A stretch of DNA of 64,000 bases from NCBI GenBank assembly GCA_017302835.1, contig JAFLCC010000002.1, forward strand, positions 186,001-250,000, given 5' to 3'. This DNA is from Deltaproteobacteria bacterium. GTDB taxonomy: Bacteria > Bdellovibrionota > Bdellovibrionia > Bdellovibrionales > Bdellovibrionaceae. Positions 30,775-54,458 of this stretch are shown here, piece after piece. A program made the position numbers and the translations under genes. How positions within the stretch are numbered: position 1 is the stretch's first letter; every line of letters starts with the position of its first letter. The notes beneath the pieces were generated by a model. It was given only the letters and a program-made list of their open reading frames with translations. It did not search any database and was not told the origin of the DNA.

Positions 30775-30785
30775 ACAAAGGGTAA

Positions 30786-33121: not shown

Positions 33122-33124
33122 TTT

Positions 33125-36301: not shown

Positions 36302-37179
36302 TAAAAATTCTATGGTGCATGAGTTATTTGATCCTTTCAGCTTGTTCCAGCTCATATAAAAATAATGCGGTAAGTGCAAGCTCCAAGAATGAAAACGAAA
36401 GATTAGACTTCGGTGAAAATAATTCAATGAATGTAAGAAAAGAGAAATCGGCTCAGTCTTCTGATCGAAATCAATCGGCGCCACAGCCAATGATGGGGAC
36501 AAGTGAAAGCGCGGCAAGCTCATCTTCACAATTAGCTGTGTACATAAAAAATCAAGATGATGAAGGGGTTTTAAAAGAAAGCTCACGGTTGTTGATTCAA
36601 AATTCAAATGATTTCAAAGCGCTCAATGCTATGGCAATGGTTTATTACAAAAAAGGGCAATTTAACCTTGCTAAGAATTTACTTTTTAGGGCCCAGAAAA
36701 ATAATCCTACTTTTGAAGTCTATTCAAACTTGGGAATTGTGTTATTGGGTAATGAGGAAAGAAATGAAGCGTTAAGGCAATTTAAAAAGGCTCTAGAGTT
36801 AAATCCAAATGATTCCGTGAGTGCGAGCAATGCGGGCTCAATCTACATAAAAGCCTATGACTATGAAAAAGCTAACTTGGTTTTAGAAAATTCTTATAAA
36901 CGGGGAATTAAGGATTTTCGGGTTCTAAATAATTATGCCATTTCACTGGTTGGGTTGGGTAAATATGAAAATGCAGAATCTGTATACAGAGAGGCCCTGA
37001 AGGAGAATAGTAGTAACAAGGAAGTGTTATTTAATTTTTCGATTTTACTGATTGAACATTTGAAAAAGAATCAAGAGGGCTTGGAAGTTTTGCAGAAATT
37101 GAAGTTTATTGGAATCCCTGAACAGTCAAGGAATAAGATACAAGAGCTTGAGTTGATAGCACGAAAGGGGCAAAAGTGA
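36298..37179 (+). CDS. gltE: glt1: TPR lipoprotein, GltE (AglT)-like
   Basis: 293 residues with lipobox LILSAC (Cys16, Ser +2), a Ser/Asn-rich linker to about residue 75, then four or more TPRs (AMAMVYYKKGQFNLAKNLLF, SNLGIVLLGNEERNEALRQF, NNYAISLVGLGKYENAESVY). Ser at +2 predicts the outer membrane. Adventurous-gliding TPR lipoproteins such as AglT have this layout, and it lies between GltD- and GltF-like genes. No counterpart exists in glt2. Overlaps both neighbours by four bases. Confidence 0.75.
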   Translation: MIKILWCMSYLILSACSSSYKNNAVSASSKNENERLDFGENNSMNVRKEKSAQSSDRNQSAPQPMMGTSESAASSSSQLAVYIKNQDDEGVLKESSRLLIQNSNDFKALNAMAMVYYKKGQFNLAKNLLFRAQKNNPTFEVYSNLGIVLLGNEERNEALRQFKKALELNPNDSVSASNAGSIYIKAYDYEKANLVLENSYKRGIKDFRVLNNYAISLVGLGKYENAESVYREALKENSSNKEVLFNFSILLIEHLKKNQEGLEVLQKLKFIGIPEQSRNKIQELELIARKGQK

Positions 37180-37466
37180 GTAGAACACAAAAGTTATTAT
37201 TAATTTTTCTTTTAGGACTTTCGTATAGTTTTGCCCAGTCAACAAACGTGACTAATAAATCTAATTATGTGAAAATCAAAGACAAGAAGGCCACGTTAAA
37301 TTTTGAGAATGAATTAGTGGAAGGTTCCACACAAAAACCAGAACTTTTTTATTTATTTCAAAAGAAAAATTTTAACTATAAGAGGCTAATCAAATTGAGA
37401 GAAAACTTTTTACCTGAGATGCGAAAAACCTCAGAGGATGTTCAGCGAGTTCGGGGTGTTAATTGA
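37176..37466 (+). CDS. glt1: GltF-like small periplasmic protein
   Basis: 96 residues, signal peptide to about residue 20 (SYSFAQ). The core ATLNFENELVEGSTQKPELF matches ILDFEGEVIEGERRRPDLF in the 128-aa protein of glt2, a small motif that seems to mark this family. In both clusters the gene lies immediately before the FHA/GltG-like gene. GTG start overlaps the previous stop; its own stop overlaps the next TTG start. Function unknown beyond its place in the complex. Confidence 0.68.
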   Translation: MSRTQKLLLIFLLGLSYSFAQSTNVTNKSNYVKIKDKKATLNFENELVEGSTQKPELFYLFQKKNFNYKRLIKLRENFLPEMRKTSEDVQRVRGVN

Positions 37467-39541
37467 AACCACCAGTAATATTGCGAGTTTACAAAAACAA
37501 TCAACTGAATGAAGTGAAGCAATTCACTATTGATCAAATTGTTGTGGGTTCTAATTTAGAAGCGCAATTGGTATTGTCCGACGATTCCATTTCCCCTATT
37601 CATTGTTTAATTGAAAAAAGAGATAGCGGATATTATATCTGTGATTTAGGTTCGCAAAACGGCACCTTTAAAAATGGTCAAGCCGTTCTTGATGAACCCA
37701 TTCAATCTGGGGATGAAATTTTTGTTGGCAAATTTAAACTCGTGTTTTTCATTGGAATTCCAAAGCCAGTTGGGATTCCTAAGTCTCAAGAGACCCTTGA
37801 TTCATCAGCTGTGAAGACAGAAGGCATTGACGTCGTCAAGGTTCAAGATAAACAACCATTGTCGAAGCAGACATCTGCTAACGACAACCTTATAAAAAAA
37901 ACAAAGGAAATTAAAGACTCTAAGAAATCTAATTTTAATCAAGTTTCAAAACCCCAAATTGATAAATTAAGTCCTGTAAAGTCAACGCGCAAAAAGAAGA
38001 GGGTCTCTTTTGCTCCTCCAGGTCAGATTCATAGTTTGAAGTCATATTTATCGCCGACGAGGGGTAGTGTGATTGAAGTCAACCTTACTTGGAATGAAAG
38101 AGTTATTCAGAGTTATCATTTTAAGCATAAAGGAATAGTTAAGGTCGGGCCAGAACAGGAAAAGCAGATTAATATCCCATCAAGTTCGTTACCCTTAAAT
38201 TGGCCACTTCTTGAAATTTCAACAACCTTGAAAGTTTTTTTACCAGTGGGTTCGGAAGTTGAGCTTCTTAATTTAAAAACCTCATTGACTGAGGAAACTT
38301 TATTTTCCATGGGAAAAGCCAGTAAAATGTCACAAGGCTTTCAGGTGAGATTAGATCAGGGGGATTTGCTCTTTGTAAACTTACCGGATAAAAATCTGGG
38401 GCTTTGCATTCGTTTTGTTGAGAATACGGGCGTTGTGCCGTTTGCCCCGTTGTTGTTATCGAGTTCTGAAATTGGTAGCATTGCATTGTCAGTTTTGATG
38501 TCCTTGATGTTAGCATTTTATGTTTCAACGATGACTTCAAAAACTCAACCTAATCCAACAGAAATAAAAACAACTTACACTGCAGAAGTTTTATTCAATG
38601 AAAAACCAAAACAACCTAAACCTCCCGAGCCGCCAACTCCTCCAGAGTTGCCAAAAATAAAACCTCCCGAGCCCGAGATCGTAAAGGTGAAAGCCTCCGA
38701 TGCAAATCGTGAAGCTTCGGTAAAAGGAAAGATTCCTTCTCAAAATAAAGCGGTATCAAATCAAGTTGCCAAAAAAGCTGTTGAAGTGGCGCCTATTGCC
38801 AATTCACAAAATAAGCTCAAAAAATTTACATCATTACGTCAAGGTGGAGCTGTTAAAATTGGATCTCAAGCTGGAGCCAATGCACAAAGTGATAAAAAAG
38901 ATGTCAGTAAAATTGGTTTATTTAGTGCATTCGGTTCGGGGGGAGTAAGATCTAAAATGGATCAGGCCTATCAGGGAGCTGGAGATATTTTAGGGAGCGC
39001 AGATAAAGCCAGTGGATCAACAGGATTTGGTGAAGACCGTCCAGGTGAAGATTTAGGATCAAAATTTAAAGACACGGGCCGTGGAGGAAAAGGGACAGCT
39101 ACCGAAGGCATTTCGGGAATTGGGACAAAAGGCCGAGCTGGAGGAACCAGTAGTTATGGGTCCATTGATGGTTTCGGAGATAAAACAACAGTTGCTATTC
39201 AAGCTGGTGGAAGTGAGGAGAGTTTTGAGGGTTCCATTGATAAAGATGCTGTAAGAAGAAGAATCACTTATAATTTAAATTTAATAAGAGGTTGTTACAA
39301 TCAAGAGCTGAATAGGTTAGATAAATCAGGACGAAAATCTTTAGAAGGAAAGGTTGTCTTAAAGTGGGAGATAGTAAATAATGGAGTAGCTAAAAATGTG
39401 AGAGTTTCAAGCTCGACACTTAACAATCGGGAAATTGAAAAGTGTATCGCAGAAAGGCTTGCAACTATTGTTTTTCCTGATCCGCCAAAGGATACGACGG
39501 CAGAGGTTATGTATCCATTTGTTTTTAGAAATGATAAATAA
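37463..39541 (+). CDS. gltG: glt1: GltG-like FHA, single-pass, AgmX/PglI-tail protein
   Basis: 692 residues from a TTG start overlapping the previous stop. Residues 20-95 are a canonical FHA domain (VVGSNLEAQLVL, SISPIHCLIE, LGSQNGTFKNG) in the cytoplasm. A cytoplasmic linker leads to one membrane segment (about 335-355, IALSVLMSLMLAFYVSTM). A Pro-rich stretch (about 375-410, KPPEPPTPPELP) and Gly-rich region follow in the periplasm. The last 95 residues are the AgmX/PglI-type, TonB-C-like tail (GCYNQELNR, VVLKWEIVNNGVAKNV, VMYPFVF). GltG links the cytoplasm and inner-membrane motor to periplasmic Glt proteins. Confidence 0.88.
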   Translation: MKPPVILRVYKNNQLNEVKQFTIDQIVVGSNLEAQLVLSDDSISPIHCLIEKRDSGYYICDLGSQNGTFKNGQAVLDEPIQSGDEIFVGKFKLVFFIGIPKPVGIPKSQETLDSSAVKTEGIDVVKVQDKQPLSKQTSANDNLIKKTKEIKDSKKSNFNQVSKPQIDKLSPVKSTRKKKRVSFAPPGQIHSLKSYLSPTRGSVIEVNLTWNERVIQSYHFKHKGIVKVGPEQEKQINIPSSSLPLNWPLLEISTTLKVFLPVGSEVELLNLKTSLTEETLFSMGKASKMSQGFQVRLDQGDLLFVNLPDKNLGLCIRFVENTGVVPFAPLLLSSSEIGSIALSVLMSLMLAFYVSTMTSKTQPNPTEIKTTYTAEVLFNEKPKQPKPPEPPTPPELPKIKPPEPEIVKVKASDANREASVKGKIPSQNKAVSNQVAKKAVEVAPIANSQNKLKKFTSLRQGGAVKIGSQAGANAQSDKKDVSKIGLFSAFGSGGVRSKMDQAYQGAGDILGSADKASGSTGFGEDRPGEDLGSKFKDTGRGGKGTATEGISGIGTKGRAGGTSSYGSIDGFGDKTTVAIQAGGSEESFEGSIDKDAVRRRITYNLNLIRGCYNQELNRLDKSGRKSLEGKVVLKWEIVNNGVAKNVRVSSSTLNNREIEKCIAERLATIVFPDPPKDTTAEVMYPFVFRNDK

Positions 39542-39566
39542 AGTTATTTAATTAAGGAGGACTAAA

Positions 39567-40232
39567 GTGAACCCAATACAACAATGTGATCCGAATAGTT
39601 TTATCGCCAGAGCTTTCTGTGAGGGTGGATGGGTCATGTATATCATTGCTATTTTTGCCATATTAACGGTTATTCTTGTTATTGAAAGGATGATGAAGCT
39701 GAATTCTTTACTTGTTAATAAACGGGATTTTACGGACAGCATTTTTAGGATGGTTGTTAATGGCGACATTCGACAAGCTATTTCACATTGTGATTCAAGG
39801 CCGTCTCCCTTAACGAACACAGTCAAGGCAGGGTTAGTGCAAGCATTAAATAAAAGACCTGATGAGGAAATTCAAGTCGCTATGGACGCTTCGGTTCTGA
39901 GAGAAATGCCTAAGATAGAAGGTATGACATCCTTTTTAGCTGTATTTGGAAATGTGGCGGTGTTAGCTGGGTTATTGGGTACAATCATGGGAATGATTGG
40001 ATCTTTTAGAGCTGTTTCTGAGGCAGATAACGCGACAAAAGCTCAGCTTCTTTCTCAAGGAATTTCCCATGCTCTGAATTGCACCGCTTTCGGTCTTTTA
40101 GTTGCTATTGTGGCAATCGTTTCTTACGGAGTGTTTCAACATCAAATTCAAAAAACAGAAAATGAAGTTGTAGAGACGAGCATGTCATTACTCAATTTAG
40201 TAGTTGCCAACAGAGACAAGATAAAGGATTAG
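39567..40232 (+). CDS. aglR: glt1: TolQ/ExbB/MotA-family motor protein, AglR-like
   Basis: 221 residues from GTG with AAGGAGG six bases upstream. Three membrane segments: about 20-42 (GGWVMYIIAIFAILTVILVIE), 127-152 (VFGNVAVLAGLLGTIMGMIGSF) and 172-195 (ALNCTAFGLLVAIVAIVSYG). The G-L-L-G-T-x-x-G-M and T-A-F-G-L-x-V-A-I motifs are those of TolQ/ExbB. With two TolR-like proteins downstream it forms a proton-channel motor as AglRQS does for Myxococcus gliding. Confidence 0.92.
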   Translation: MNPIQQCDPNSFIARAFCEGGWVMYIIAIFAILTVILVIERMMKLNSLLVNKRDFTDSIFRMVVNGDIRQAISHCDSRPSPLTNTVKAGLVQALNKRPDEEIQVAMDASVLREMPKIEGMTSFLAVFGNVAVLAGLLGTIMGMIGSFRAVSEADNATKAQLLSQGISHALNCTAFGLLVAIVAIVSYGVFQHQIQKTENEVVETSMSLLNLVVANRDKIKD

Positions 40233-40233
40233 C

Positions 40234-40710
40234 ATGTCACATATTGATTCAGGAGGAGCAAGGGGAAGGCCTGTCAGTGTTGAACTTAACTTAGTTCCTT
40301 TTATTGATTTGATGAGTGTTCTTATTACATTCCTGTTGATCACAGCGGTGTGGACTCAGGTATCAATGATTCAGATAGGGAGCTCTCTCTATGCTAAAAA
40401 AGATGAGAGTGCAAGCTCACCTAAACCTCCTCCCAATGCTGACATCGCTTTAAAAGTCGACGTGAAAAATGATGGCTATGTTTTAACCGTAGGCACTCAA
40501 GTCATTTCCATTCCAAAGGTGGCGGCTTCTTATGACAATTCCAGCTTAGTTGCTCAGCTACAACGGTTCAAACAACTTTATCCGGATAAAATTGACGGAA
40601 TCGTGAGCATGAGTGATCAGGTTCCTTATGAACAGTTAATAATCATTATGGATTATTTTTTAGTTGCCGGGTTTCCTAATATTTCTATAGCTACAGGGGG
40701 GCCTTACTAA
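40234..40710 (+). CDS. aglQ: glt1: TolR/ExbD-family motor protein, AglQ-like
   Basis: 158 residues. One N-terminal membrane segment (about 22-45) has the proton-carrying Asp in VPFIDLMSVLITFLL. The periplasmic domain ends with the ExbD-like strand-helix VPYEQLIIIMDYFLVAGFPNISIA. It lies one base after the TolQ-like gene and abuts the next TolR-like gene, so stoichiometric motor assembly is implied. AglQ versus AglS naming follows order only. Confidence 0.88.
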   Translation: MSHIDSGGARGRPVSVELNLVPFIDLMSVLITFLLITAVWTQVSMIQIGSSLYAKKDESASSPKPPPNADIALKVDVKNDGYVLTVGTQVISIPKVAASYDNSSLVAQLQRFKQLYPDKIDGIVSMSDQVPYEQLIIIMDYFLVAGFPNISIATGGPY

Positions 40711-41300
40711 TGCCGATTCGACGACCAGGAGAAAGATATAGATATCATCGAATACTTAATCGAAAAAAAGGCAAAAGATCTTTAACGGCCATTCTCTCTT
40801 TGACGGCCATGGTAGACATGTTTACGGTGTTAGCTATTTTTCTTTTGCAAAACTACAATGTTAAGGATTTTATTGTTTATACCCCTAAAGAAGTTATTTT
40901 ACCAAAGGCTCAATCAACAAAGGAATTAAAACCTGCCTTTGTAATTACGATATCAAAAAAAGAAATTCTATTGGATAAAACGGCGGTAGCCTCTTTTGCT
41001 GAAGTTCAATCTCAGCAAGATTGGTTAATTAAATCATTATATGATCAATTACAGCAAGGATTGATAAGATCAAAGCAAGAATTTTTAGGTAAGCTGCAAA
41101 ATAAAATTAAAACAGCGGTTGAAGATGCGCGAGGAGAAAAAGACGAAGATCCATTTGCATGGAAAAAAATTACGATTCAATCAGATAAAGATATTGATTT
41201 TCTGACTGTTAAAAAAATTATGTACACTGTCACTGAGGCCGGAGCTGGTGAAATTAATTTTGCTGTTATTAAAAAAACTGATAAAGAAATTGCAAAATAA
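40710..41300 (+). CDS. aglS: glt1: second TolR/ExbD-family motor protein, AglS-like
   Basis: 196 residues. Basic N-terminus (RRPGERYRYHRILNRKKGKR), one membrane segment (about 27-46) with Asp in TAMVDMFTVLAIFLL, then a periplasmic domain longer than usual because of a charged insertion (about 105-150) before the ExbD-like tail (DFLTVKKIMYTVTEAGAGEINFAV). Start overlaps the AglQ stop by one base. Last gene of glt1; lptCA begins 25 bases later. Confidence 0.86.
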   Translation: MPIRRPGERYRYHRILNRKKGKRSLTAILSLTAMVDMFTVLAIFLLQNYNVKDFIVYTPKEVILPKAQSTKELKPAFVITISKKEILLDKTAVASFAEVQSQQDWLIKSLYDQLQQGLIRSKQEFLGKLQNKIKTAVEDARGEKDEDPFAWKKITIQSDKDIDFLTVKKIMYTVTEAGAGEINFAVIKKTDKEIAK

Positions 41301-41324: not shown

Positions 41325-42272
41325 ATGCGGAATTTAAAAAGAACCATATTTTTATTCTTATTATTTTTAATTATTCTTGAAGTTATTTTTATTTTTCCAA
41401 AACAATTAGAGACAGCAAATAATATTGTAGACTCGAATCCTTTAACTCAAGAAAAAGCAGAGCAAAAAATGGATGGAGTTCATCTTGTTGAATCTCAAAA
41501 GGGCAATCGGGATTGGGAGCTTTTTGCGGAAAATGCCAGAGGTTATCAGGGAGAAGGTGATTGGTTTTTAAAAAAAGTGAAGGTTCAATTTTATAATAAA
41601 GATAAAATTGATTTTATCGTTACTGGTGATGAGGGTGAAATTGATGGAATAACCAGAAACATGAAAGTGAAAGGAAATGTCGTTATTACATCCAGCAATG
41701 GATATCTATTTTATACCGCGGAGTTATTTTATAATTCTATTTTAAGAAAAATAATCTCTCCAGGAGAGATTAAAATGGTGGGGCCCGGAGATGAGCAAGG
41801 GGAAGGGCTCGTATTAAATGGAAGAAATATGCATGTTTTGATTGATATATCGGAGATGAAAATATTTAAAGATGTACAATCTTCTAAAAAACTAAAGAAT
41901 ATGAATAATTTAAATATTCAAAGTGAGTCGGCACTTTTTAGCAGTCAAAATAAAGAAGTTCATTTTCAGAATAATGTTATTCTTATCTACAATGATATGA
42001 TCATTCGTGGGCCTGATTGTTATTTTAATTATTCTCATAATATGAAAACTTTGGAGTATATTCGAGTCAAAGGTGGTGTCGAAGTTAAAGACAAGAAACG
42101 CAGGGCGATCAGTGAGGAGCTGGAAGTTAACTTGCAGAGCAATATACTTAAATTCAATGGGAATCCAAAAATCTATCAAGATGAAGATGAAATTAGTGGA
42201 GATGAAATTTTATTTTTTGATGGTGGAAAAAAAATAAAAATTCAAAAAGTAAAGGCTTCAAGCCAGATTTGA
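41325..42272 (+). CDS. lptC: LptC-LptA fusion: periplasmic LPS transport protein
   Basis: 315 residues, far longer than LptC alone (about 190). Membrane anchor at about 7-23 (IFLFLLFLIILEVIFIF). Residues 35-190 follow LptC: WELFAENARGYQG, VTGDEGEIDGITRNMKVKGN, YTAELFYNSILRKI and GEGLVLNGRNM. Residues 195-310 follow the LptA/OstA fold: IQSESALFSSQNKEVHFQNN, YIRVKGGVEVKDKKRRAISE, LKFNGNPKIYQDEDEISGDE. LptC receives LPS from the LptBFG extractor and LptA forms the periplasmic bridge. lptB follows after 33 bases with no separate lptA, which supports a true fusion. No clear ribosome site precedes the ATG. Confidence 0.87.
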   Translation: MRNLKRTIFLFLLFLIILEVIFIFPKQLETANNIVDSNPLTQEKAEQKMDGVHLVESQKGNRDWELFAENARGYQGEGDWFLKKVKVQFYNKDKIDFIVTGDEGEIDGITRNMKVKGNVVITSSNGYLFYTAELFYNSILRKIISPGEIKMVGPGDEQGEGLVLNGRNMHVLIDISEMKIFKDVQSSKKLKNMNNLNIQSESALFSSQNKEVHFQNNVILIYNDMIIRGPDCYFNYSHNMKTLEYIRVKGGVEVKDKKRRAISEELEVNLQSNILKFNGNPKIYQDEDEISGDEILFFDGGKKIKIQKVKASSQI

Positions 42273-44557: not shown

Positions 44558-45277
44558 ATGAAATTAAATAAAAAAACCATTTTCATATTATTGTCTATTT
44601 TTTTATTCGCTAGTGAAAGCTTTTGCCAGACAAAAAGCGTTGAGGGAAGTAAAAAATCTACGTTAGATCGTTCTTTGGAGCCAACAGTTTCAGATGAAAT
44701 ATCATCCTTGTTTGAAAATGTAGTTGCAGTTCAAAGAAAGGCGAAAGTAAAATCTGGAAAATTTTTGTTTGCTCCCTATTTGTCTTTTGATTTTTCGGAT
44801 TCACCGCAAACGATGTATGCCTTTAATTTCAATATGGGATATGCTATCGGCGAGTTTTTTGAGATTTATTTAAATTATGTTCCCTCCTATGTAAATAATG
44901 AAAGAAGTATTTCGAAAAAAGTTCGTGAATTGCGACCTTATCCTGATGATGGCACGACTCCTTACATAGATGTCGAAAAAGTAAAGAACTCTTTCGGGCT
45001 TGAGTTAAATTGGGTTCCCATTTATGGGAAAGATTCTTGGGGTCCCTATGGAATTATTCGTTCTGATACCTATTTAAATGTGGGCTTCAGTCGAATTAAC
45101 TATACGACTAATTCTGGTTATAAAACGAAGTTAGCTATGGGGAAAACATGGTTTATATCAGATTATTGGAATCTAAGGTTGCAAGCGGGCGGATCATTTT
45201 TAGAAACTTTTTCTAAAGGAAAAAAAGAAATTATTGTGATTGGCTTATTAGAGGGCGGTTTGGTTTACTATTTTTAA
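44558..45277 (+). CDS. glt2: predicted outer-membrane beta-barrel (GltA/GltB-like)
   Basis: 239 residues with signal peptide to about residue 23. Barrel strands from about 70 (KFLFAPYLSFDFSD, MYAFNFNMGYAIGEFFEIYL, LNWVPIYGKDSWGPYG), ending in GLLEGGLVYYF with a terminal aromatic. The W-V-P-I-Y-G-K motif is the same as in the second barrel of glt1. Only one barrel gene is present here, against two in glt1. It starts glt2 85 bases after rpoN. Confidence 0.74.
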   Translation: MKLNKKTIFILLSIFLFASESFCQTKSVEGSKKSTLDRSLEPTVSDEISSLFENVVAVQRKAKVKSGKFLFAPYLSFDFSDSPQTMYAFNFNMGYAIGEFFEIYLNYVPSYVNNERSISKKVRELRPYPDDGTTPYIDVEKVKNSFGLELNWVPIYGKDSWGPYGIIRSDTYLNVGFSRINYTTNSGYKTKLAMGKTWFISDYWNLRLQAGGSFLETFSKGKKEIIVIGLLEGGLVYYF

Positions 45278-45296
45278 TTATATTTAAGGAGACTCT

Positions 45297-45935
45297 ATGT
45301 TTATCATTAACTCATTGGAAATTTTATTTAAAGAAGGTGGTGCCACTGCTTATTTTATAGTTGGAAGCGGCATTGCACTTGTCATTTTAGCAATTGCAAA
45401 AATTAACTACTTGTATGTTCAGCTGCGGCCAGCAGGAGATAGCAATTTAAAAGAAGTGAGCCGTTTGGTTTTGAAAAAAGAATACACAGCTGCTATCCAA
45501 GTATGTAATACCGTGAAGAATGTTCCCGAATTCGAAGTTATTAAGTCAGGACTTATGGCCGTTGATGGGGGTAGGGAAGCGATGAAATCTTCATTGGGAT
45601 CAGCGGTTGTTGATATCATGAAGAATTGCGAAAAAGGGATTCAGTTTTTAGCTTTGATAGCTAGTGTGGCAACTTTGTTAGGATTGCTTGGAACTATTTC
45701 AGGGCTAATGAAAACATTTGCGGCATTAAAAGATATTGATCCCGCGAAAAAAGCAGAGCTTTTGGGAACGGGAATTTCAGAGGCCATGACTGCAACTGCA
45801 GCAGGACTTGTTGTTGGTATTTCAGCAATGGTGATTCATACTTTATGCACACAAAAAATTGATCAAATTATTGGGCAGGCCAAAAAAACTGGTTTTGATA
45901 TCATTACCTTAGTAGAGCAAAGCGAAAGAGCATGA
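45297..45935 (+). CDS. glt2: TolQ/ExbB-family motor protein, AglR-like
   Basis: 212 residues, AAGGAGA before the ATG. Three membrane segments: about 18-40 (AYFIVGSGIALVILAIAKINY), 110-132 (LALIASVATLLGLLGTISGLM) and 158-182 (ATAAGLVVGISAMVIHTL). The LLGLLGTISG and T-A-T-A-A-G-L motifs are standard. It shares the fold but little close identity with the glt1 protein. The motor genes here precede GltC, whereas in glt1 they close the cluster. Confidence 0.9.
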   Translation: MFIINSLEILFKEGGATAYFIVGSGIALVILAIAKINYLYVQLRPAGDSNLKEVSRLVLKKEYTAAIQVCNTVKNVPEFEVIKSGLMAVDGGREAMKSSLGSAVVDIMKNCEKGIQFLALIASVATLLGLLGTISGLMKTFAALKDIDPAKKAELLGTGISEAMTATAAGLVVGISAMVIHTLCTQKIDQIIGQAKKTGFDIITLVEQSERA

Positions 45936-46456
45936 GTTTAGAGTTTGCAGAAATCCAAAGAAGACACACGCCTGAGCCAGAATTGGTACCCATTCTGGAC
46001 GCGTTGACTTGTATCATCTTTTTTTTGATGTACACGACTACCTTTATGGAACTGACAAGCCTAACTCTGCCCCCCTCTGCCGTGAGTGTGGTCAAAGAAC
46101 AAAATGTTGCTGATGGTAATCCTTTGACGCCAAAAATATTTGTGAACATCGTAAATTCAAATTTAGAAGTCATTTTGAAATGGACGGGAAGCGCTCCTGG
46201 GAAAATTAAGAAAACAATTAGTCGGTTTAAGTCTGAAAGATATTCCAAAGACCTTGAAATAGCGATGACTGTACTTATCGAGGAATTTGTCAAAAAATTT
46301 CCAAAAGAAAAAACAATTCAATTGGGATTGGCAGAAGGTAGCACCTATCAAGAACTAATCACTATCATGGATGGAATACGAAAGAATATACAGGATATTG
46401 TCCTGATGTCACCTGATGATGTGACTCACTTTAATGAGGAGTCAAATGGATCTTGA
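45932..46456 (+). CDS. glt2: TolR/ExbD-family motor protein, AglQ/AglS-like
   Basis: 174 residues. Membrane segment about 20-42 with Asp in LVPILDALTCIIFFLMY. The periplasmic region is basic in the middle (KIKKTISRFKSERYSKD) and ends with the ExbD-like motif STYQELITIMDGIRKNIQDIVLMSP. Start overlaps the TolQ stop (ATGA). Together with the next gene it completes a one-TolQ, two-TolR set like that of glt1. Confidence 0.86.
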   Translation: MSLEFAEIQRRHTPEPELVPILDALTCIIFFLMYTTTFMELTSLTLPPSAVSVVKEQNVADGNPLTPKIFVNIVNSNLEVILKWTGSAPGKIKKTISRFKSERYSKDLEIAMTVLIEEFVKKFPKEKTIQLGLAEGSTYQELITIMDGIRKNIQDIVLMSPDDVTHFNEESNGS

Positions 46457-46919
46457 ATCTTTAGAAACTCAGAAAAGGCATCCTCTCAGGTTGCAATTGG
46501 CTCCGATGATAGACATCTTTTTCTTAATCATCATTTTTTTATTGAAATCAACAATCGTTGCAGATGTTTCGATTATTTTTCCGAGCCAAATGCATCCTCC
46601 AATAAGTCTTAGCAAGGAAGGATTAGAAACATTTCCTGAGGTGGTTCTTACTGACAAAGAAGTAAATATAAGTTTTTTAAATGAGAATTTGAATCTTTCT
46701 CAAATAAATAATATGACGGAAGAAAAAATTGAAGAATTAAAGTTAAAAGTGGAAGCCTACATTAGGAATAAAGATGAAAAGATAAGAGCTCAATCAATCA
46801 ATGTAAACTTTCTGACATCACGTGAAAATAGTTATAAGAATATTTTTATCGCAGTCAAATTTCTAAGGAAAATAGGATTTCAGTCAATTCAGTTTATCGC
46901 AGAAGGTGAATCTAAATGA
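46446..46919 (+). CDS. glt2: second TolR/ExbD-family motor protein
   Basis: 157 residues from ATG at 46446, which has GAGG seven bases upstream; ATG 46434 would add four residues. Membrane segment about 17-38 with Asp in LAPMIDIFFLIIIFLL. The periplasmic domain ends YKNIFIAVKFLRKIGFQSIQFIAE, the typical ExbD tail. It overlaps the preceding gene by 11 bases and the GltC-like gene by four. Confidence 0.85.
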   Translation: MDLESLETQKRHPLRLQLAPMIDIFFLIIIFLLKSTIVADVSIIFPSQMHPPISLSKEGLETFPEVVLTDKEVNISFLNENLNLSQINNMTEEKIEELKLKVEAYIRNKDEKIRAQSINVNFLTSRENSYKNIFIAVKFLRKIGFQSIQFIAEGESK

Positions 46920-48100
46920 GAATTTTTCGAATAGAAAATATCTCAAGAATGTTTTTCATTTTAACATCAATGGTGATGATGTCTAAGACGGTGAGTTTTG
47001 CAGAATCTTTGGTGAGTGTGCTTCGTGAAATGGAAAAAAAATCTGATGATTTAGGTATTAGAATTGTTATTCGCAAAAATTTCAAAAAGTCCTTGAGTAT
47101 TCAAGAGTGGTTTGAAATAAGAAAGATCCTGATTAGAAGACCAAAAGTGGGTTTTGACGCGAAAACCGCTTGGGATAGACAAATTTCTTTAAGATCTTCT
47201 AACCTACAAAAAGAATCGGATAAGATTTTTTTGTTTTTAGAAAAAGCAGATGAATACACACTCAATCAGCAATATGAAAAGAGTTTTGATATGTATCAGC
47301 GGGCCGCGAAGTATTTTAAAACTTCGAATAAGGGCAGAGTTCCTAAAGGGAACCAACAGCTGTACTTAAATATTATTCATCAAATGGGCAGAACGCTCTA
47401 CGCTCAAAAAAGATTTAATGAGGCTTTGGAAGTTTACAGCTGGATATCCCCCGTTTATCCTCAAATTCGGCAGGTTTTATTTGAAAAAATGTGGACAGCC
47501 TTTCGTGCAGGAAAGTATGACCTAGCTCTAGGTGCGATCGCTTCACAGCAGTCTGGTTATTTTTCGGAATATTTACATCCGGAAAGTTATTTGATTAAAG
47601 TCTATATTTTTAAGCGCCTATGTCGGAAAAAAGATTTGGTTTACACGGTTGAGGCATTAAAGAATTATTTAGCCAGTCTTAAAAGTGGGAAATTCGATGC
47701 GATTGAATGGGCTAAATCAGACCTGTATTATATGTCTTTAGCTCAGCTCATAGAGGTTTCTAAAAACTCTAAAATGGAGCTATTGAAGTATGCTTCTAGA
47801 GTCGAAAGACAAAATGAAATTAAAAAAATTCATGAATCTCTAAAGGAGAGATTTAAAGTTCATAAAGAGGTTTTGCAAAACCAACTTGAGCGAGTTTATG
47901 GTTATGCTTCCTTGGCTCTAAGTAACGAACAGGATTTTCTGAAACCAATAAGTACGTTGCCAGAAGCAAAGGTATTGGAAAAAAAAGGATACGAGCTATG
48001 GCCTTCCGGGGATGCTGAAGAATGGTTAGACGAGATTGGCAGCCACATATATATTGGTCCATCAGAATGTAAAGAAAATGCAAGCAATACAGAAAAATAA
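46916..48100 (+). CDS. glt2: GltC-like periplasmic TPR protein
   Basis: 394 residues, with a signal peptide (about 10-30, ending SFA). The middle has TPR-like helices (YTLNQQYEKSFDMYQRAAKY, GRTLYAQKRFNEALEVYSWI, FRAGKYDLALGAIASQQSGY). The tail EEWLDEIGSHIYIGPSEC matches the end of the 516-aa glt1 GltC. Compared with that protein it lacks about 120 residues of repeats. ATGA overlap with the TolR gene couples motor and periplasmic parts. Confidence 0.78.
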   Translation: MRIFRIENISRMFFILTSMVMMSKTVSFAESLVSVLREMEKKSDDLGIRIVIRKNFKKSLSIQEWFEIRKILIRRPKVGFDAKTAWDRQISLRSSNLQKESDKIFLFLEKADEYTLNQQYEKSFDMYQRAAKYFKTSNKGRVPKGNQQLYLNIIHQMGRTLYAQKRFNEALEVYSWISPVYPQIRQVLFEKMWTAFRAGKYDLALGAIASQQSGYFSEYLHPESYLIKVYIFKRLCRKKDLVYTVEALKNYLASLKSGKFDAIEWAKSDLYYMSLAQLIEVSKNSKMELLKYASRVERQNEIKKIHESLKERFKVHKEVLQNQLERVYGYASLALSNEQDFLKPISTLPEAKVLEKKGYELWPSGDAEEWLDEIGSHIYIGPSECKENASNTEK

Positions 48101-48115
48101 GATTGAAGACATAGA

Positions 48116-51100
48116 ATGAAGAAGAAATTGTGCATCGTCATTATCATGATTCCATTTTTAATTTTTTCTGAAGAGAAGAAGGCTCAGGGAAAATTAGATA
48201 GCTCTGGTCTGGTGCGAATAGATCAAGATAATAAAAAAACATTGGAAACAAGAAAAGCGCCTCCTGCAAATAATAAAGAAAAACTTAAAGTAGAAATGTT
48301 AATTGAGGATGATCCTTCTAAGCTAGAAAAACAAGTTAAGGCATTGCAGCTGATATTAAAAAATGAAAAAGATCGAAATAAAAAAATTAATTTATATTTA
48401 AGGTTAAGTTACTTACATGTTTCGATTGCTAAAAAATATGGGATTAAAAGAGTTGCTGGGGAAAAGATAAACGATCAAGAAAAAAAACATTTAGATGAAG
48501 CCATCAAAGTTATTAATTTTCTGCTCAAAAATATTGAAAATAATAAAAGATCGCTATCGACTTTATATAACATTAAAGGTTTGGTCAGTTTTGAGTTAGA
48601 TGATCTTAAAGAAACAATAGCTAATTTTATTAAATCCATCGAATTAAATCCAAAAAATACACAAGCTGAAGTCATGTCTATATTTATTGGAGAGTATTAC
48701 TTTGATGAAGAAAAATATGATGATGCCATAAAATATTATCAACTTTTTTACAATAGAATGAGCAAAACCCAGAAAGCTCTTTCTGACTATAAAGTCGCCT
48801 GGTCCTATTTAAATAAAAAAGATTCAGAAAAAGCTGAGATGCAATTTATCAAGGTCATCGTTCAAGATTTAGATAAGGGTACAACAGAAGATGCTTATAA
48901 AGATTTGGCGTTTATTTTGACACAAAATAATGATGAATTGCATCTTATTAACAAAGTAAATTCATTTACAAAATCGAATGTCGTTAAGGGGCATTTATAC
49001 TATTACTGTCTTCTCTTTTATTTACAGAATTCTAAAGATAAATCCAGGGATGATCTCTTTAAAGAAGTGTTAGGTATTGAAAAAGATCCCTATAAACAAT
49101 TAAAGATTTTAGTTTTAAAAGTCAGTTTCGAAAAGAAAGATATTCCTACTAAAGGAATGGTTGTTGCTTTGGATAATGTTGCAAAAAAATTGAAAATTTT
49201 AGATATCGAATCTAGATCAAGATTTTTTAAATTAGATGCAAATCAATTAGAAGACGATTCCGAATTTAATATCAGAGTTCATATTGATGCTTACACCGGA
49301 AGATTAAAGGCCGAAGAAAGTGTGTCGAAACTGGAGCTAGGTAATGAAGCTGTAAAACACATTCAAAGACACATTGAATGGTTTCCGTTGTCCAAGAAAA
49401 AAAATATATTGTACAACCTATGGATAGATACCTGTGTTGATTTGAAGAACTCAACATGCTTATTTGAGCTGGAATCACTTTTTAAAACAGGCATGAAAAA
49501 CATTCCTTCTATTGAGTATCTTAAAAAGGTACAAATTGAACTTCTGGCCTTATATGATGCTGCTTTTGAAAAGGATAGGATCAAGCACCAGCAAGCTTTT
49601 GTGAAGAGACTGAAATCATTTGCTGAGCAGTTTCCATCGGATCCAATTTCACTAAAAAGCCAGAAAAGACTATTCGGCATTTACTTAGATAGTAAAAATT
49701 ATGCAGAGGCATTGCCCTATGCAGAGAACCTTTTTAAGGTCGAAAAAAATGCCGAAAGTGTACAAAAAATTCTCATTTGTTTATATGAAATGCAAAGATA
49801 TGAAATGGTTTTGAATGATCCAGTATATAATCAATTCAGTTCAGTTGAAATAACAGACATCAGACGAGAGGCAAGTCTTAAATCAGCTATGATTAATGCA
49901 ACTAAAGGAGATTTCGAAAAATATGAAAACGATATTCAGGCCTACCTAAAAACAAAACCAAGTGAAGAAAAGGCAATGGTCGTCTATGTTGACTATTTTA
50001 AAAAATTAATCGAGCTCAATTTCTTTCAAAAATTTATTGATGAATGGAAAAAATTGACACCCCAAATGCAATCAAGAAAAACATTCACCTCAATCAAATC
50101 CTTCTATTTTGATAAAACATTAAGTGAGGGTGACTTTGTGCCTTCATCCTTGTTTTGGACGTACGGTGAAGATAAGGACCTGAATGCAAAAATCGTCATT
50201 AATAAAATTGCCTTTAATACCCAATTGACATCAACGGATTTGGTGTTTTTTAGCAATCTGAGCGAAGAGAAGAAAAACTACCTGCTGGCTCTTATGAATT
50301 ACTTGAATCCAACAGAGGTGCTCTCCATTCTAAAACTTAATAAAAATCTTTCCGAAGAGCAGAAAAAAATCTATTTAGTATCGTTGTTGTTAAAAGCGGG
50401 AACTATAAATGTGAAATTTGAACAAAATGAAATCAGTGCTATTAAGAATATAGTTCCCGAGAAATACCTTAAAGATACTGAATTGAAAATAGAAGAAAAT
50501 ATCAAAAACGTTATTTTTCCAAACTCAAAGATGAAACCGAAAACCTATGAGTCCTATGTTGTCAACAATGTGGATAATATAAAATTCTTAAGGGCGCGCG
50601 TACTTAAATCTTTGAAAACGGCCACTCAAGTTCAAAAAATGAGAATTTTTGATAAAATGTCCAAGGTCGAGTTAGGGATGGCTCAATCTATTAAAAATTC
50701 TCCGCCACCACAGGGGTTGGATGAAGCACAGCTTTCTGAATACAAATCAGGTTTAGTTGAGATGGCCAAGGACTATGAAAAGCAAGGTCAAGAGTTTGCT
50801 GCGGCAAAATTGGAAATTGAAAACATTCTGAAAAAGCAAAGCGATGATGATCTGGCTTCGGTTTTGCCTGAAATTAGCATTGAAGATTGGAATGTGTCTC
50901 ATAGTGATACTAGGGAAAAACTGAACAAAATAATTTCCAAGACATCGGCGAAAGCTGTTATGATGTACCTAGATAATCTACTGTATTCTAAGAAGATAGA
51001 ATTGGAAGAGTATTATAATTACAAAACGTGGGTTATATTAAAAATGAAACCAAATGAGGCTTTGCGAAAGTATTATTTTGAAGAGTTGATGGCAGCAAAT

Positions 51101-51142
51101 CAAACAGCGCAAATAAGTAAATGGAGATCTTTAAAAAAATGA
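48116..51142 (+). CDS. glt2: large periplasmic TPR protein, GltD-like
   Basis: 1008 residues, signal peptide to about residue 18 (MIPFLIFSEE). TPR-like repeats are recognisable at about 85-260 (YLRLSYLHVSIAKKYG, YNIKGLVSFELDDLKETIAN, MSIFIGEYYFDEEKYDDAIK) and again near 520-570; the middle is diverged. Residues near 855-870 (AQSIKNSPPPQGLDE) align with a motif in the glt1 GltD-like protein. Its 3' end overlaps the next gene by about 22 bases. No GltE-like lipoprotein gene follows, unlike glt1. Confidence 0.74.
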   Translation: MKKKLCIVIIMIPFLIFSEEKKAQGKLDSSGLVRIDQDNKKTLETRKAPPANNKEKLKVEMLIEDDPSKLEKQVKALQLILKNEKDRNKKINLYLRLSYLHVSIAKKYGIKRVAGEKINDQEKKHLDEAIKVINFLLKNIENNKRSLSTLYNIKGLVSFELDDLKETIANFIKSIELNPKNTQAEVMSIFIGEYYFDEEKYDDAIKYYQLFYNRMSKTQKALSDYKVAWSYLNKKDSEKAEMQFIKVIVQDLDKGTTEDAYKDLAFILTQNNDELHLINKVNSFTKSNVVKGHLYYYCLLFYLQNSKDKSRDDLFKEVLGIEKDPYKQLKILVLKVSFEKKDIPTKGMVVALDNVAKKLKILDIESRSRFFKLDANQLEDDSEFNIRVHIDAYTGRLKAEESVSKLELGNEAVKHIQRHIEWFPLSKKKNILYNLWIDTCVDLKNSTCLFELESLFKTGMKNIPSIEYLKKVQIELLALYDAAFEKDRIKHQQAFVKRLKSFAEQFPSDPISLKSQKRLFGIYLDSKNYAEALPYAENLFKVEKNAESVQKILICLYEMQRYEMVLNDPVYNQFSSVEITDIRREASLKSAMINATKGDFEKYENDIQAYLKTKPSEEKAMVVYVDYFKKLIELNFFQKFIDEWKKLTPQMQSRKTFTSIKSFYFDKTLSEGDFVPSSLFWTYGEDKDLNAKIVINKIAFNTQLTSTDLVFFSNLSEEKKNYLLALMNYLNPTEVLSILKLNKNLSEEQKKIYLVSLLLKAGTINVKFEQNEISAIKNIVPEKYLKDTELKIEENIKNVIFPNSKMKPKTYESYVVNNVDNIKFLRARVLKSLKTATQVQKMRIFDKMSKVELGMAQSIKNSPPPQGLDEAQLSEYKSGLVEMAKDYEKQGQEFAAAKLEIENILKKQSDDDLASVLPEISIEDWNVSHSDTREKLNKIISKTSAKAVMMYLDNLLYSKKIELEEYYNYKTWVILKMKPNEALRKYYFEELMAANQTAQISKWRSLKK

Positions 51143-51507
51143 AAGTAATGGTGTTTGTCATTTTATCCTCAGTGTTTGTCTTTTCTCAGGAGCAGGAAAA
51201 TACGGATTCGCTAACTTTACCAACGGAAGAAGCTAAATTTCCCGTAGTCGAGTCTGGAAAGTCGAGCACTTCCAATTCAAGTACTTCGAAGACAAGTTCA
51301 ACGCCGAACAAGGCAAAAGACAACGTGGGAGCCATTCTAGATTTTGAGGGCGAAGTGATCGAGGGAGAGAGAAGAAGGCCAGATTTATTTTTGCAAATAT
51401 CTATTGATAATGTAAAGTTTGATTCTTTAATTTATAATAGAGATGATTTTAATGATTATTTAGAAGTAGATAGAAAAAGTAGAAATAAATTTTTTAAAAT
51501 GAAGTAA
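51139..51507 (+). CDS. glt2: GltF-like small periplasmic protein
   Basis: 122 residues from ATG at 51139 (MKVMVFVILSSVFVFSQ), giving a regular signal peptide; ATG 51121 in frame adds MEIFKK and also overlaps GltD. A Ser/Thr-rich linker (about 40-62) is followed by ILDFEGEVIEGERRRPDLFL, the motif shared with the glt1 protein, and FDSLIYNRDDFNDYLEVDRK. Both copies precede a GltG-like gene. Role unknown. Confidence 0.7.
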   Translation: MKVMVFVILSSVFVFSQEQENTDSLTLPTEEAKFPVVESGKSSTSNSSTSKTSSTPNKAKDNVGAILDFEGEVIEGERRRPDLFLQISIDNVKFDSLIYNRDDFNDYLEVDRKSRNKFFKMK

Positions 51508-51510
51508 CCA

Positions 51511-53382
51511 ATGAAAGTTTTAGTTTTAAAGAAAAACAATAAAGAAATTGGCAGAGTGAGCCCGGACAGAAGAAGTCTTCTGATCGGTAGGTCTCCTGTG
51601 TGCGATCTTGTTATCCGAAAAATTGAACACATCAAACCTCTGCACTTTCTAATGGAATGGACAGGGGAAGGCAGTTTTGATCCTTATTCTGGATTTTGGA
51701 CAATCATTGATATTTCTGGATCTGAGTCTGAAGAGGTAAATAAAGATTATCATGGCGAAGCACATGTTTTGATTGAGAGTGAAATTGAAATTGGAGAATT
51801 TCAATTTTCTTTTGTTGAAGAAAAGTTGGCAAAAACAGCCTTGGCAAAAGGTGTTATTTCACGTTCTCTAGAATACGATAATAATGGGGCAACATTTGTT
51901 AGAAATGATGCTGAGTCTGTATTAGAATTGGTTACCTATAGTCGTAGTAATGATCTGGTGACTTCAATCAACCACTTCTCTAAAGATGTTTTAGCCCGAG
52001 GGATTAAAATCAACTCCCTGGCAAATTTGGAGTTCACATACAATTCATCACGGCCCAACATACTTTCATTTGAGAATCTAGGAGAAAAAAATTTAGTTGA
52101 TATTTATAATCGCTCCGAGCGCCTTATAGATTATTTTTCAAAAGAAAATTCAGTTTGTCAAATTGATATAGAGGATTTTTATTTACTGTCCTCAATAGAA
52201 AATGCTTATTACTTAAGGTGGGTTCCAAAAGTTCAAGTCTCGCCACCTCCTAGAGCTTGGAAAAAAGATCCAGTTATTTTAACCTTGATATTTGTTATTT
52301 TCTCCATGTTTTTGTTTGGGCTTCTGATGCAGTCGATAAAAAAACCAGTTACGATGGATATTCCAATTCCCAAAAGAGTGGCAACTGTTCAAATTTTAGA
52401 TCTACAGCCAGTACTTAAAGAAGAGCCTCCTCTTCCCGTTATTGACAAAGAGGTTAGCCCGGAGACTGTTCAACCCCCTCCTGTCGAGCTCCCTAAGGAT
52501 CAGGTCAAGGTAGATTCAGAAAAAGATAAACCAAAAATGGATAAGCCTCAGACCAAACCAAAAAACGAAGATTTTAACCCAGCAAAAAAGACACCTCCTA
52601 AAATTCAGGGTGCCAGAGCTACGATAAAAAATTTATCTAAGAATGATGAACCATCCCAAGGTCTAAATCAAAAAGCTCCAATAAAAAACGTCAACTCAGT
52701 TGGATTGTTAGGTAAACTCAGTGGTGGGAAAAAAACTGGCTCTGGTGTGGATGCTAAATTGTTAGTTTCAAGTGTGACTCCAACCGATGCTGCAGTTGGT
52801 TCAGAGGGAAGAGTTAAACTTAAAGGCTCTCCGTCTGGAAACGTCAATTTAACTTCTGGAAAAACAGAAGCAAGTGCGGATGAGGGGGCTGGATTATCTG
52901 CAGCGGCGACAACTTTAAAAATGGATAACATGTCCAAGGGAACTAATATTTCAGGTATGGTTTCATCCAAGGCGACAGGAGGAATTGGTTCTGGATTATT
53001 TGGTGGAAATAAAAAAGAGGGTTCGGATTCCATTGAAAGCTTGGGAGGATCTGTTTCTATCGAAGTTAAATCGATGGAAATTCAAGGGGGATTGACTAAA
53101 GAACAGGTGAGGCAGGCGATTTCAGATAACAGGAGGTCACTGCGAAACTGTCATGAACAGTACTTAACGTATAAAAAAGATTTAGGTGGACGTCTTGTTT
53201 TGCGGTGGAAAGTGAATGGTGAAGGTCCTGTAGATACAGCCTCAATTCAGAGCTCTGATACCAAATATGGAATCTTTGATTCCTGTGTTTTAGAAGTTAT
53301 CAAAAAAATTGTCTTTCCTAAAGCCGCGAGTGGTAACTCGACATTGGTAATTTATCCATTTGTATTTCAACCGAAAAAATAA
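51511..53382 (+). CDS. glt2: GltG-like protein with degenerate FHA and AgmX/PglI tail
   Basis: 623 residues. The N-terminal 100 residues keep an FHA outline (LLIGRSPVCDLVI, IKPLHFLMEW) but lack the N-G(T) phosphothreonine-contact motif, so ligand binding is doubtful. One membrane segment (about 252-272, VILTLIFVIFSMFLFGLLM) and a Pro/Lys-rich stretch (about 300-365) follow. The last 95 residues are an AgmX/PglI-type tail (RRSLRNCHEQYL, GRLVLRWKVNGEGPVDT, IYPFVFQP). Same architecture as glt1 GltG. Last gene of glt2. Confidence 0.84.
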   Translation: MKVLVLKKNNKEIGRVSPDRRSLLIGRSPVCDLVIRKIEHIKPLHFLMEWTGEGSFDPYSGFWTIIDISGSESEEVNKDYHGEAHVLIESEIEIGEFQFSFVEEKLAKTALAKGVISRSLEYDNNGATFVRNDAESVLELVTYSRSNDLVTSINHFSKDVLARGIKINSLANLEFTYNSSRPNILSFENLGEKNLVDIYNRSERLIDYFSKENSVCQIDIEDFYLLSSIENAYYLRWVPKVQVSPPPRAWKKDPVILTLIFVIFSMFLFGLLMQSIKKPVTMDIPIPKRVATVQILDLQPVLKEEPPLPVIDKEVSPETVQPPPVELPKDQVKVDSEKDKPKMDKPQTKPKNEDFNPAKKTPPKIQGARATIKNLSKNDEPSQGLNQKAPIKNVNSVGLLGKLSGGKKTGSGVDAKLLVSSVTPTDAAVGSEGRVKLKGSPSGNVNLTSGKTEASADEGAGLSAAATTLKMDNMSKGTNISGMVSSKATGGIGSGLFGGNKKEGSDSIESLGGSVSIEVKSMEIQGGLTKEQVRQAISDNRRSLRNCHEQYLTYKKDLGGRLVLRWKVNGEGPVDTASIQSSDTKYGIFDSCVLEVIKKIVFPKAASGNSTLVIYPFVFQPKK

Positions 53383-53447: not shown

Positions 53448-54458
53448 CTAGGCTACCTGATTTTTCTCTAGATCCCTTAACCATTGATCTAATTTAAGTA
53501 AATTTTTTTCATCAGCCTTTGAGAATGAAAATCTGTTGGGTTGATTTAAATCTCCAACGGGATGACATCTGAATAGAATGCTTTTTTTGCCTCCAGGATC
53601 GGAAATATAAACCTCAATCTCTGCATTTAAAATATCTTGGGGAATTGAATTTTCGGTTTGAATTCCTCCAAGAGAGATATCTCTTGTGTAAGTCATAAAT
53701 GCTTTAGCTTTATTTGTAATAATCGTTCTTAATCGACCTCGAATCCGAGGGTATCGTCGGGTGTGCTTTTTTTCTTTTTTAGGTGCGGCGTTAATTGGAT
53801 TTGTATTTCCATGAAAATGTCCATTGGAAGTATTTTTTTCTATTTCGTGAAAGGCTATATGTGTAGGATTCGCTGGGGATTCATTTGTAACTGTCGTGCT
53901 GGGTGTTGATGCGGGTAACTGGATGGTCGTTATCGTTTTATCAAAGGAACCAGGTATGATGCGAGAGATACTTTGCGTTTCTTCAAGCTTCGGAGTGTTT
54001 TCATGAGAAAACTTCATTGTATTTTCAAACCGATTTGGATCATTAGAGATGTTGGTGTGAGTTTGATCCAATATATCTGATTTATCAGCCTCTTCAAAAT
54101 CAATAACCGTTCCTGAAAAAGTGAGAATGCCTGGTTCTTTATTTTTTTCATCATTAACTGGGTCTGAAAATTCGACGACAGAGTCAGGTGTTTCTATTAT
54201 TACTTTTTGGGATTTATAAGAAACATGAGAATAAGGGCTAGGCAGAGGAGGAATCTCTTGGGTTTCATTCCACGTGAAAGATAGCCATTCAAGAACTTCT
54301 GGAGACTCAGAAACAAGCTTCCAGCTAGGTAACCCTTGGGTCCAGTAATAAAAATCACTAGGTTGAGATTTTTTTTGGACAATTTCAACAAGTTGTTTTT
54401 TGTTGAGTTGTTCAAACTTTTCCTCATTGGTTTTATTAAATAAATAATATTTCGACAT
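53448..54458 (-). CDS. GYF_2-PilZ protein, putative c-di-GMP effector
   Basis: 336 residues. Residues 1-60 match the GYF_2 pattern (YYLFNKTNEEKFEQLNKKQL, then FYYWTQGLPSWKLVSESPEV). A long low-complexity linker (about 80-225) leads to a PilZ domain from about 228 with RRYPRIRGRLR (RxxxR) and DISLGGI (DxSxxG), both c-di-GMP contacts present. It lies convergent to the end of glt2, 65 bases away. GYF domains occur in Myxococcus GltJ, which makes a regulatory link with the Glt machine plausible, but this is inference from position and domain. Confidence 0.82.
   Translation of the reverse strand: MSKYYLFNKTNEEKFEQLNKKQLVEIVQKKSQPSDFYYWTQGLPSWKLVSESPEVLEWLSFTWNETQEIPPLPSPYSHVSYKSQKVIIETPDSVVEFSDPVNDEKNKEPGILTFSGTVIDFEEADKSDILDQTHTNISNDPNRFENTMKFSHENTPKLEETQSISRIIPGSFDKTITTIQLPASTPSTTVTNESPANPTHIAFHEIEKNTSNGHFHGNTNPINAAPKKEKKHTRRYPRIRGRLRTIITNKAKAFMTYTRDISLGGIQTENSIPQDILNAEIEVYISDPGGKKSILFRCHPVGDLNQPNRFSFSKADEKNLLKLDQWLRDLEKNQVA

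Follow-up and report, generated by a model that had tools for sequence, protein, structure and literature searches.

Does the gene cluster that follows rpoN in this stretch of DNA from a member of the Bdellovibrionaceae repeat its neighbour, or does it encode a machine of another class? The window, by which we mean the whole 64,000-nucleotide stretch that was analysed, contains a gliding-type cluster at 30022-41300, referred to here as cluster 1, and after a gap of 3.2 kb a second one, glt2, at 44558-53382. A sequence-only reading had described glt2 as sharing descent with cluster 1 while being deeply diverged from it. We conclude that glt2 is a fifth class of AglRQS-Glt machine, anciently separate and additional to the four known clusters of Bdellovibrio bacteriovorus HD100, and that it is linked to a gene encoding a GYF-PilZ protein.

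All eight open reading frames of glt2 (barrel, TolQ, two TolRs, GltC, GltD, GltF and GltG) are intact and on the plus strand, as had been reported (Table 1). The transmembrane (TM) aspartates of both TolRs are invariant in 15 of 15 rows of the ortholog alignment and, because of the known role of this residue in TolR/ExbD proteins, a working proton motor is to be expected. The cluster has the AglRQS-Glt/Nfs-type core (Luciano 2011) with respect to TolQ, two TolRs, the GltG tail, GltC and GltD. It has one barrel and no gene for the tetratricopeptide-repeat (TPR) lipoprotein GltE, in line with the earlier description, and is therefore Glt-like without the complete published core. The absence of GltE does not set glt2 apart, since every match to the GltE of cluster 1 lay in a locus of the cluster 1 type. 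The GltG of this cluster (GltG2) consists of a degenerate cytoplasmic FHA-like domain (E = 0.035), one TM segment at approximately residues 254-274, a proline-rich linker and a TonB/AgmX-type tail. The AlphaFold2 model of the barrel is of low confidence (predicted local distance difference test, pLDDT, 55) with about 10-12 strands; a search of the PDB with this weak model gave OmpW, OmpX and OmpA as best matches, none with E below 0.001.

Comparison of the two clusters indicates homology at 18-35% identity. Single-sequence phmmer searches matched the barrel, TolQ, both TolRs, GltC and GltG, with E values from 3e-5 to 5e-25. Global identities (TolQ 35%, TolRa 30%, TolRb 29%, barrel 28%, GltF 29%, GltC 24%, GltG 24% and GltD 21%) lie 5-30 standard deviations (SD) above shuffled controls, with z scores of 16 for GltC and 7.7 for GltD. 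The first barrel of cluster 1 (OMP1) shares only 18% identity with that of glt2 (2.9 SD), and the glt2 barrel therefore pairs with the second (OMP2). The motifs WVPIYGK, WLDEIG and FExx[LV][VI]EG are exactly as described in the sequence-only reading, and WxPxYGK and FE-x-[ED]-[VIL]-[VI]-EG are not chance resemblances, because they recur in nearly all orthologues. The cluster 1 GltF is encoded at 37176-37466 with a GTG start. Several glt2 proteins fall below equivalog cut-offs, both those for Tol-Pal TolQ and ExbB (TIGR02796, 66 against 221 bits; TIGR02797, 55 against 206 bits) and the Myxococcus xanthus-based NCBIfam models for GltC and CglF (Table 1) and GltG (73.5 against 650 bits), yet the direct matches to cluster 1 show that the architecture is real. 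PDB searches with the TolQs of both clusters returned TolQ/ExbB matches only.

Cluster 1 differs from glt2 in having two barrels, GltE, a conserved FHA domain and a longer GltC (516 residues compared with 394, in agreement with the shortening noted previously). It is also the nearer of the two to the M. xanthus Glt system, with scores of 218 bits for GltG and 177 for GltC, compared with 73 and 39 for glt2.

To place these clusters, rpoN neighbourhoods and GltG-bearing loci were collected from about 30 relatives, and TolQ, TolRa, TolRb and the GltG tail were concatenated for tree building; the tree covers the window genome and its relatives, without Myxococcota sequences such as Nfs. The tree contains five groups, each set off by a branch with support of 98-100: cluster 1, glt2, Bd1473, Bd2368/Bd0411 and a small fifth group. 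The 21 glt2 rows are monophyletic (support 100). Cluster 1 and glt2 belong to different fully supported clades, which together with the homology described above bears out both the common descent and the deep divergence claimed earlier, and glt2 lies outside the clades of all four HD100 cluster classes (Bd0411, Bd0828, Bd1473 and Bd2368). A phylogeny had also been proposed as the check on recent tandem duplication. The short gap between the clusters and their shared motifs would suit a recent, redundant copy of cluster 1, but forcing cluster 1 and glt2 of the same genus together was rejected (difference in log-likelihood 638; approximately unbiased test, p = 0.0002), the orthologues are found in nine genera and mostly away from cluster 1, and the motor residues are retained in every aligned row. 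We consider such a duplication to be very improbable.

The Bd1473-1483 class appears as the sister of glt2 with a support of 84, which is weak and suggestive only, and a constraint grouping cluster 1 with glt2 was not rejected (p = 0.16). The glt2 stem is long (1.4 changes per column), and its deep position may be affected by long-branch effects. We also note a further small class of TolQ/TolR/GltG/GltD loci with other partners (L053, L088, L098 and L100), with representatives in several of the order's families.

The distribution of glt2 is sharply defined. Scores against a GltC2 profile are bimodal: of the 66 genomes of the family, 18 (nine genera, 20 loci) reach 307-566 bits, and the remainder do not exceed 68 bits. 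The profile search detected full-length GltC2 in none of 24 Bdellovibrio genomes and in none of 78 genomes of the class outside the family. A GltD2 profile, with six candidates scored per genome, agrees with this distribution and is matched at full length in this family only. The internal branching of glt2 appears roughly to parallel that of cluster 1, and the simplest reading is that glt2 has descended within the family and been lost several times. Second glt2-type clusters are present in two genomes, G007 (L070/L071) and G003 (L107, C24); the G003 copy is rearranged, with a GltC gene that diverges from the rest.

The order of the glt2 genes is identical at rpoN (the window genus and genus g9) and at other locations in g3, g4, g5, g7, g8, g14 and g39. 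The reported position immediately after rpoN is thus correct for the window, but it is specific to a lineage of two genera, and no sigma-54 site was found near or upstream of glt2, matches in the window being fewer than expected by chance. Sigma-70-like and terminator-like sites were likewise not above chance counts, and an RNA family search gave no matches. The other neighbours of glt2 are a phosphoribosyltransferase gene and a nucleoside-phosphorylase-type gene.

The sequence-only reading spoke of two motors. The window genome (3.63 Mb) in fact has four complete clusters of this type (cluster 1, glt2, C6 and C17), and four Agl/Glt clusters are known in HD100 (PMC2797640, PMC3169522). Genome G029, which we treat by inference as HD100, has four strong GltG loci (392, 786, 1396 and 2277 kb) that fit Bd0411-0421, Bd0828-0838, Bd1473-1483 and Bd2368-2377 (PMC2797640, PMC12546842). 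Cluster 1 is the counterpart of Bd0828-0838, as lptC-lptB-rpoN follows in HD100 too; no glt-like genes follow rpoN in that genome. The AglS protein of this cluster, Bd0838, is required for prey attachment in B. bacteriovorus (PMC6561027). C6 (L045) belongs to the Bd1473 class. C17 (L044) is in a subclade distinct from Bd0411 and Bd2368, together with members from G001, G012 and G042, and the window genome is therefore without a close orthologue of Bd0411-0421 or Bd2368-2377. The passages searched in a comparative genomics study of 18 obligate predators do not discuss Glt clusters.

These assignments bear on the suggestion that glt2 acts in prey entry or in the bdelloplast, as Bd0411-0421 does in HD100. 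HD100 clusters do differ by stage, with proteomics showing Bd0411-0421 to peak in the early bdelloplast and Bd2368-2377 at exit (PMC12546842), and since the only window-genome member of that clade is in a third subclade, another cluster might substitute. However, the tree assigns glt2 and these two clusters to separate clades with full support, and glt2 is absent from all 24 Bdellovibrio genomes, HD100 among them. Its nearest, weakly placed kin is Bd1473-1483, whose aglQ gene bd1480 is surface-induced in a Bd0367-dependent manner (PMC9140294); gliding is lost when Bd0367 is deleted (PMC9140294, PMC3271064). The proposal of a role in entry or septation inside prey therefore finds no support here, and we judge an entry or bdelloplast function to be quite unlikely.

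The cluster as originally delimited stopped one gene short, omitting the GYF-PilZ gene that adjoins it on the opposite strand (Table 1). The AlphaFold2 model of the encoded protein has a pLDDT of about 90 for residues 1-65 and 231-335, which are joined by a disordered linker (residues 72-230). Foldseek matches the C-terminal domain to the PilZ proteins MotI (first; a motility inhibitor of Bacillus subtilis), MapZ and YcgR, and this domain carries the motifs R234xxxR238 and D260xSxxG265, of the type associated with cyclic di-GMP (c-di-GMP). The sole GYF match of the N-terminal domain in the PDB is the GYF domain of M. xanthus GltJ (7z3c; rank 38, probability 0.96, E = 0.14); the N-terminal domain of an orthologue (L082) scores 20.7 bits against the GYF_2 Pfam profile, below the cut-off of 25.8. 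In the linker of another orthologue (L020:18206-19537, minus strand) and of other members of the genus we noted, by eye, repeated threonine motifs resembling DFEKT/DFDKT, which are possible phosphosites; GltG has an FHA-like domain.

Of the 18 genomes with glt2, 17 have a GYF-PilZ homologue that scores 100 bits or more, the one without it being 67% complete; among the 48 others, a single genome has such a homologue. The gene adjoins glt2 in 13 genomes, and G002 is compatible with adjacency, a contig break lying between. The gene is convergent and downstream at rpoN, in g7 and in g14, co-directional and downstream in g39, and divergent and upstream in g5 and g3. This persistence of the linkage through relocation and re-orientation is our main argument that the protein belongs to the glt2 system. 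Apart from L104 (NISLTG) and a copy cut by a contig end, the GYF-PilZ proteins linked to glt2 retain both RxxxR and D/NxSxxG.

A GYF-PilZ gene is also found beside TolQ in the Bd1473-1483 class, which resembles glt2 in having TolQ, two TolRs, GltD, GltG, GltC and a barrel. It differs in gene order and clade, in possessing the metal-ion-dependent adhesion site (MIDAS) lipoprotein Bd1483 and in being spread across the order, whereas glt2 is confined to one family. Hobley and others named the PilZ protein Bd1482, at the 5' end of one gliding operon, as a candidate receiver of the DgcA signal (PMC3271064). We take the 206-residue GYF-PilZ protein adjoining TolQ in this HD100 cluster to be Bd1482. 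In this protein RKCPR is intact, but D/NxSxxG, a motif that most copies of this class lack, is replaced by SVSENG; by comparison, the glt2-linked copies appear better equipped for ligand binding.

Our preferred interpretation, which we rate as about as likely as not, is that the glt2 proteins form a proton-driven machine that spans the envelope, is set by c-di-GMP and serves movement on surfaces or on contact, or surface remodelling. As in the known families, TolQ and two different TolRs would form a proton-driven inner-membrane motor of the 5:2 type. GltG2, anchored in the inner membrane, would carry force across the periplasm through its TonB-like tail and pass it to GltF, GltD and GltC and to the single outer-membrane barrel, the TPR proteins and the barrel being the outer parts. 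The cytoplasmic GYF-PilZ protein may dock on the cytoplasmic face of the machine through its GYF domain, and its c-di-GMP-bound PilZ domain could then engage or brake the machine. The window genome encodes four GGDEF domains, so it can presumably make the signal, and 13 PilZ domains. In this job glt2 would most likely work side by side with the machine of the Bd1473-1483 type. We suggest only tentatively that GYF-PilZ proteins in general serve as a c-di-GMP clutch for Glt/TolQ-type motors, in which GYF docks and PilZ senses.

Several observations weigh against this interpretation of glt2 and its neighbour. GYF-PilZ is not adjacent to glt2 in G028 (a few genes, about 9 kb, away) or in G007 and G011 (elsewhere in the genome), and it is mostly not co-directional with glt2. 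The PPPR sequence before the GltG2 TM segment, a candidate GYF docking motif, is confined to two genera, that of the window and g9; apart from a weak PP in g7, other genera have no proline-rich target ahead of this segment, which was accordingly rejected as a general docking site. The sister relation to the Bd1473-1483 class is itself weak. No adhesin gene is present in the cluster, and M. xanthus PlpA keeps the PilZ motif without binding while binding by PixA is dispensable for motility (PMC8316039).

Some of these points would also suit the view that the GYF-PilZ gene is a mere neighbour travelling with a cluster that is not under c-di-GMP control: its usual place on the opposite strand, the fact that PilZ motifs are no proof of binding, and an unlinked homologue in HD100 (L110). 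The three arrangements around the same cluster, the co-occurrence in all but one of the glt2 genomes and the independent GYF-PilZ gene of the Bd1473-1483 class argue otherwise, and we find this view doubtful. The unlinked homologue (289 residues; L110:3682-4551, minus strand, in G029, probably HD100; C8 92395-92961 in the window genome, G000) adjoins genes for a HAD phosphatase and an OmpA-like lipoprotein and is conserved across Bdellovibrio genomes.

The glt2 cluster shares with M. xanthus AglRQS-Glt the motor type, GltG tail, GltC, GltD, GltF and barrel, and the GltJ GYF domain resembles the N-terminal domain of GYF-PilZ; an AglR-GltG interaction has been demonstrated in M. xanthus (PMC3169522). 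The glt2 cluster differs in lacking GltE, H, I, J and K and in having PilZ fused to GYF. YcgR and MotI, c-di-GMP proteins that act on flagellar motors and of which MotI is the top PDB match, share with the glt2-linked protein the PilZ fold and possibly a similar mode of action, but the glt2-linked protein has GYF rather than a YcgR-type N-terminal domain and is linked to TolQ/TolR, not MotA/MotB. A further alternative is that the motor acts not on the cell but on a polymer or coat at its surface, which it would move or assemble. The M. xanthus sporulation system Nfs (nfsA-H), a sister Glt-type system serving spores and not motility, likewise has a Glt-type core without GltI/J/K (PMC3169522), and the lack of an adhesin gene would fit; the genes flanking glt2 include none seen to be for polymer synthesis, however, and we regard an Nfs-like role as unlikely.

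Table 1. Genes of glt2 and the linked GYF-PilZ gene, in window coordinates.
Feature	Length (residues)	Position	Strand	Evidence
OMP, outer-membrane beta-barrel	239	44558..45277	+	TIGR04565 50 bits (cut-off 60); homologous to cluster 1 OMP2
TolQ/ExbB/AglR-type proton-channel subunit	212	45297..45935	+	PF01618 91.6 bits; 15-row ortholog alignment
TolR/ExbD-type subunit a	174	45932..46456	+	PF02472 34.5 bits, over cut-off; expected proton-carrying Asp in PILDAL
TolR/ExbD-type subunit b	161	46434..46919	+	PF02472 33.9 bits, over cut-off; expected proton-carrying Asp in APMIDIF
GltC-like periplasmic TPR protein	394	46916..48100	+	NF033756 39 bits (cut-off 450); homologue of cluster 1 GltC
GltD-like large periplasmic TPR protein	1008	48116..51142	+	Weak TPR; alignment to cluster 1 GltD, z = 7.7
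GltF/CglF-like small periplasmic protein	128	51121..51507	+	NF033764 26 bits (cut-off 90); motif FEGEVIEG
GltG-like force transducer	623	51511..53382	+	NF033760 73.5 bits (residues 469-621); NF033768 70 bits (cut-off 40)
GYF-like + PilZ protein	336	53448..54458	-	PF07238 22.9 bits (cut-off 22.5); conserved glt2 neighbour

Two further genes near cluster 1 were noted. Between cluster 1 and lptB, positions 41325-42272 encode one protein with LptC and LptA/LptD_N domains, an apparent LptC-LptA fusion. Upstream of cluster 1, on the minus strand at 23729-24967, lies a gene for an FHA-domain sigma-54 activator-like protein (FHA, AAA+ and helix-turn-helix, assigned by eye).

Four clusters are known in Bdellovibrio, and enzymes of c-di-GMP and cyclic GMP-AMP (cGAMP) control gliding, while the machinery of surface movement is still unidentified (PMC13104615). 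The present results indicate that the machines of this kind in HD100 do not represent all those of the family. If the proposed clutch is correct, a TolQR motor would be under second-messenger control in a manner comparable to that of YcgR and MotI on flagella, and glt2 would be the class that retains the full ligand motifs. A fifth class with a conserved PilZ partner, together with the same design in the surface-induced class, yields a short and testable list of receptors that could link signal to motor.

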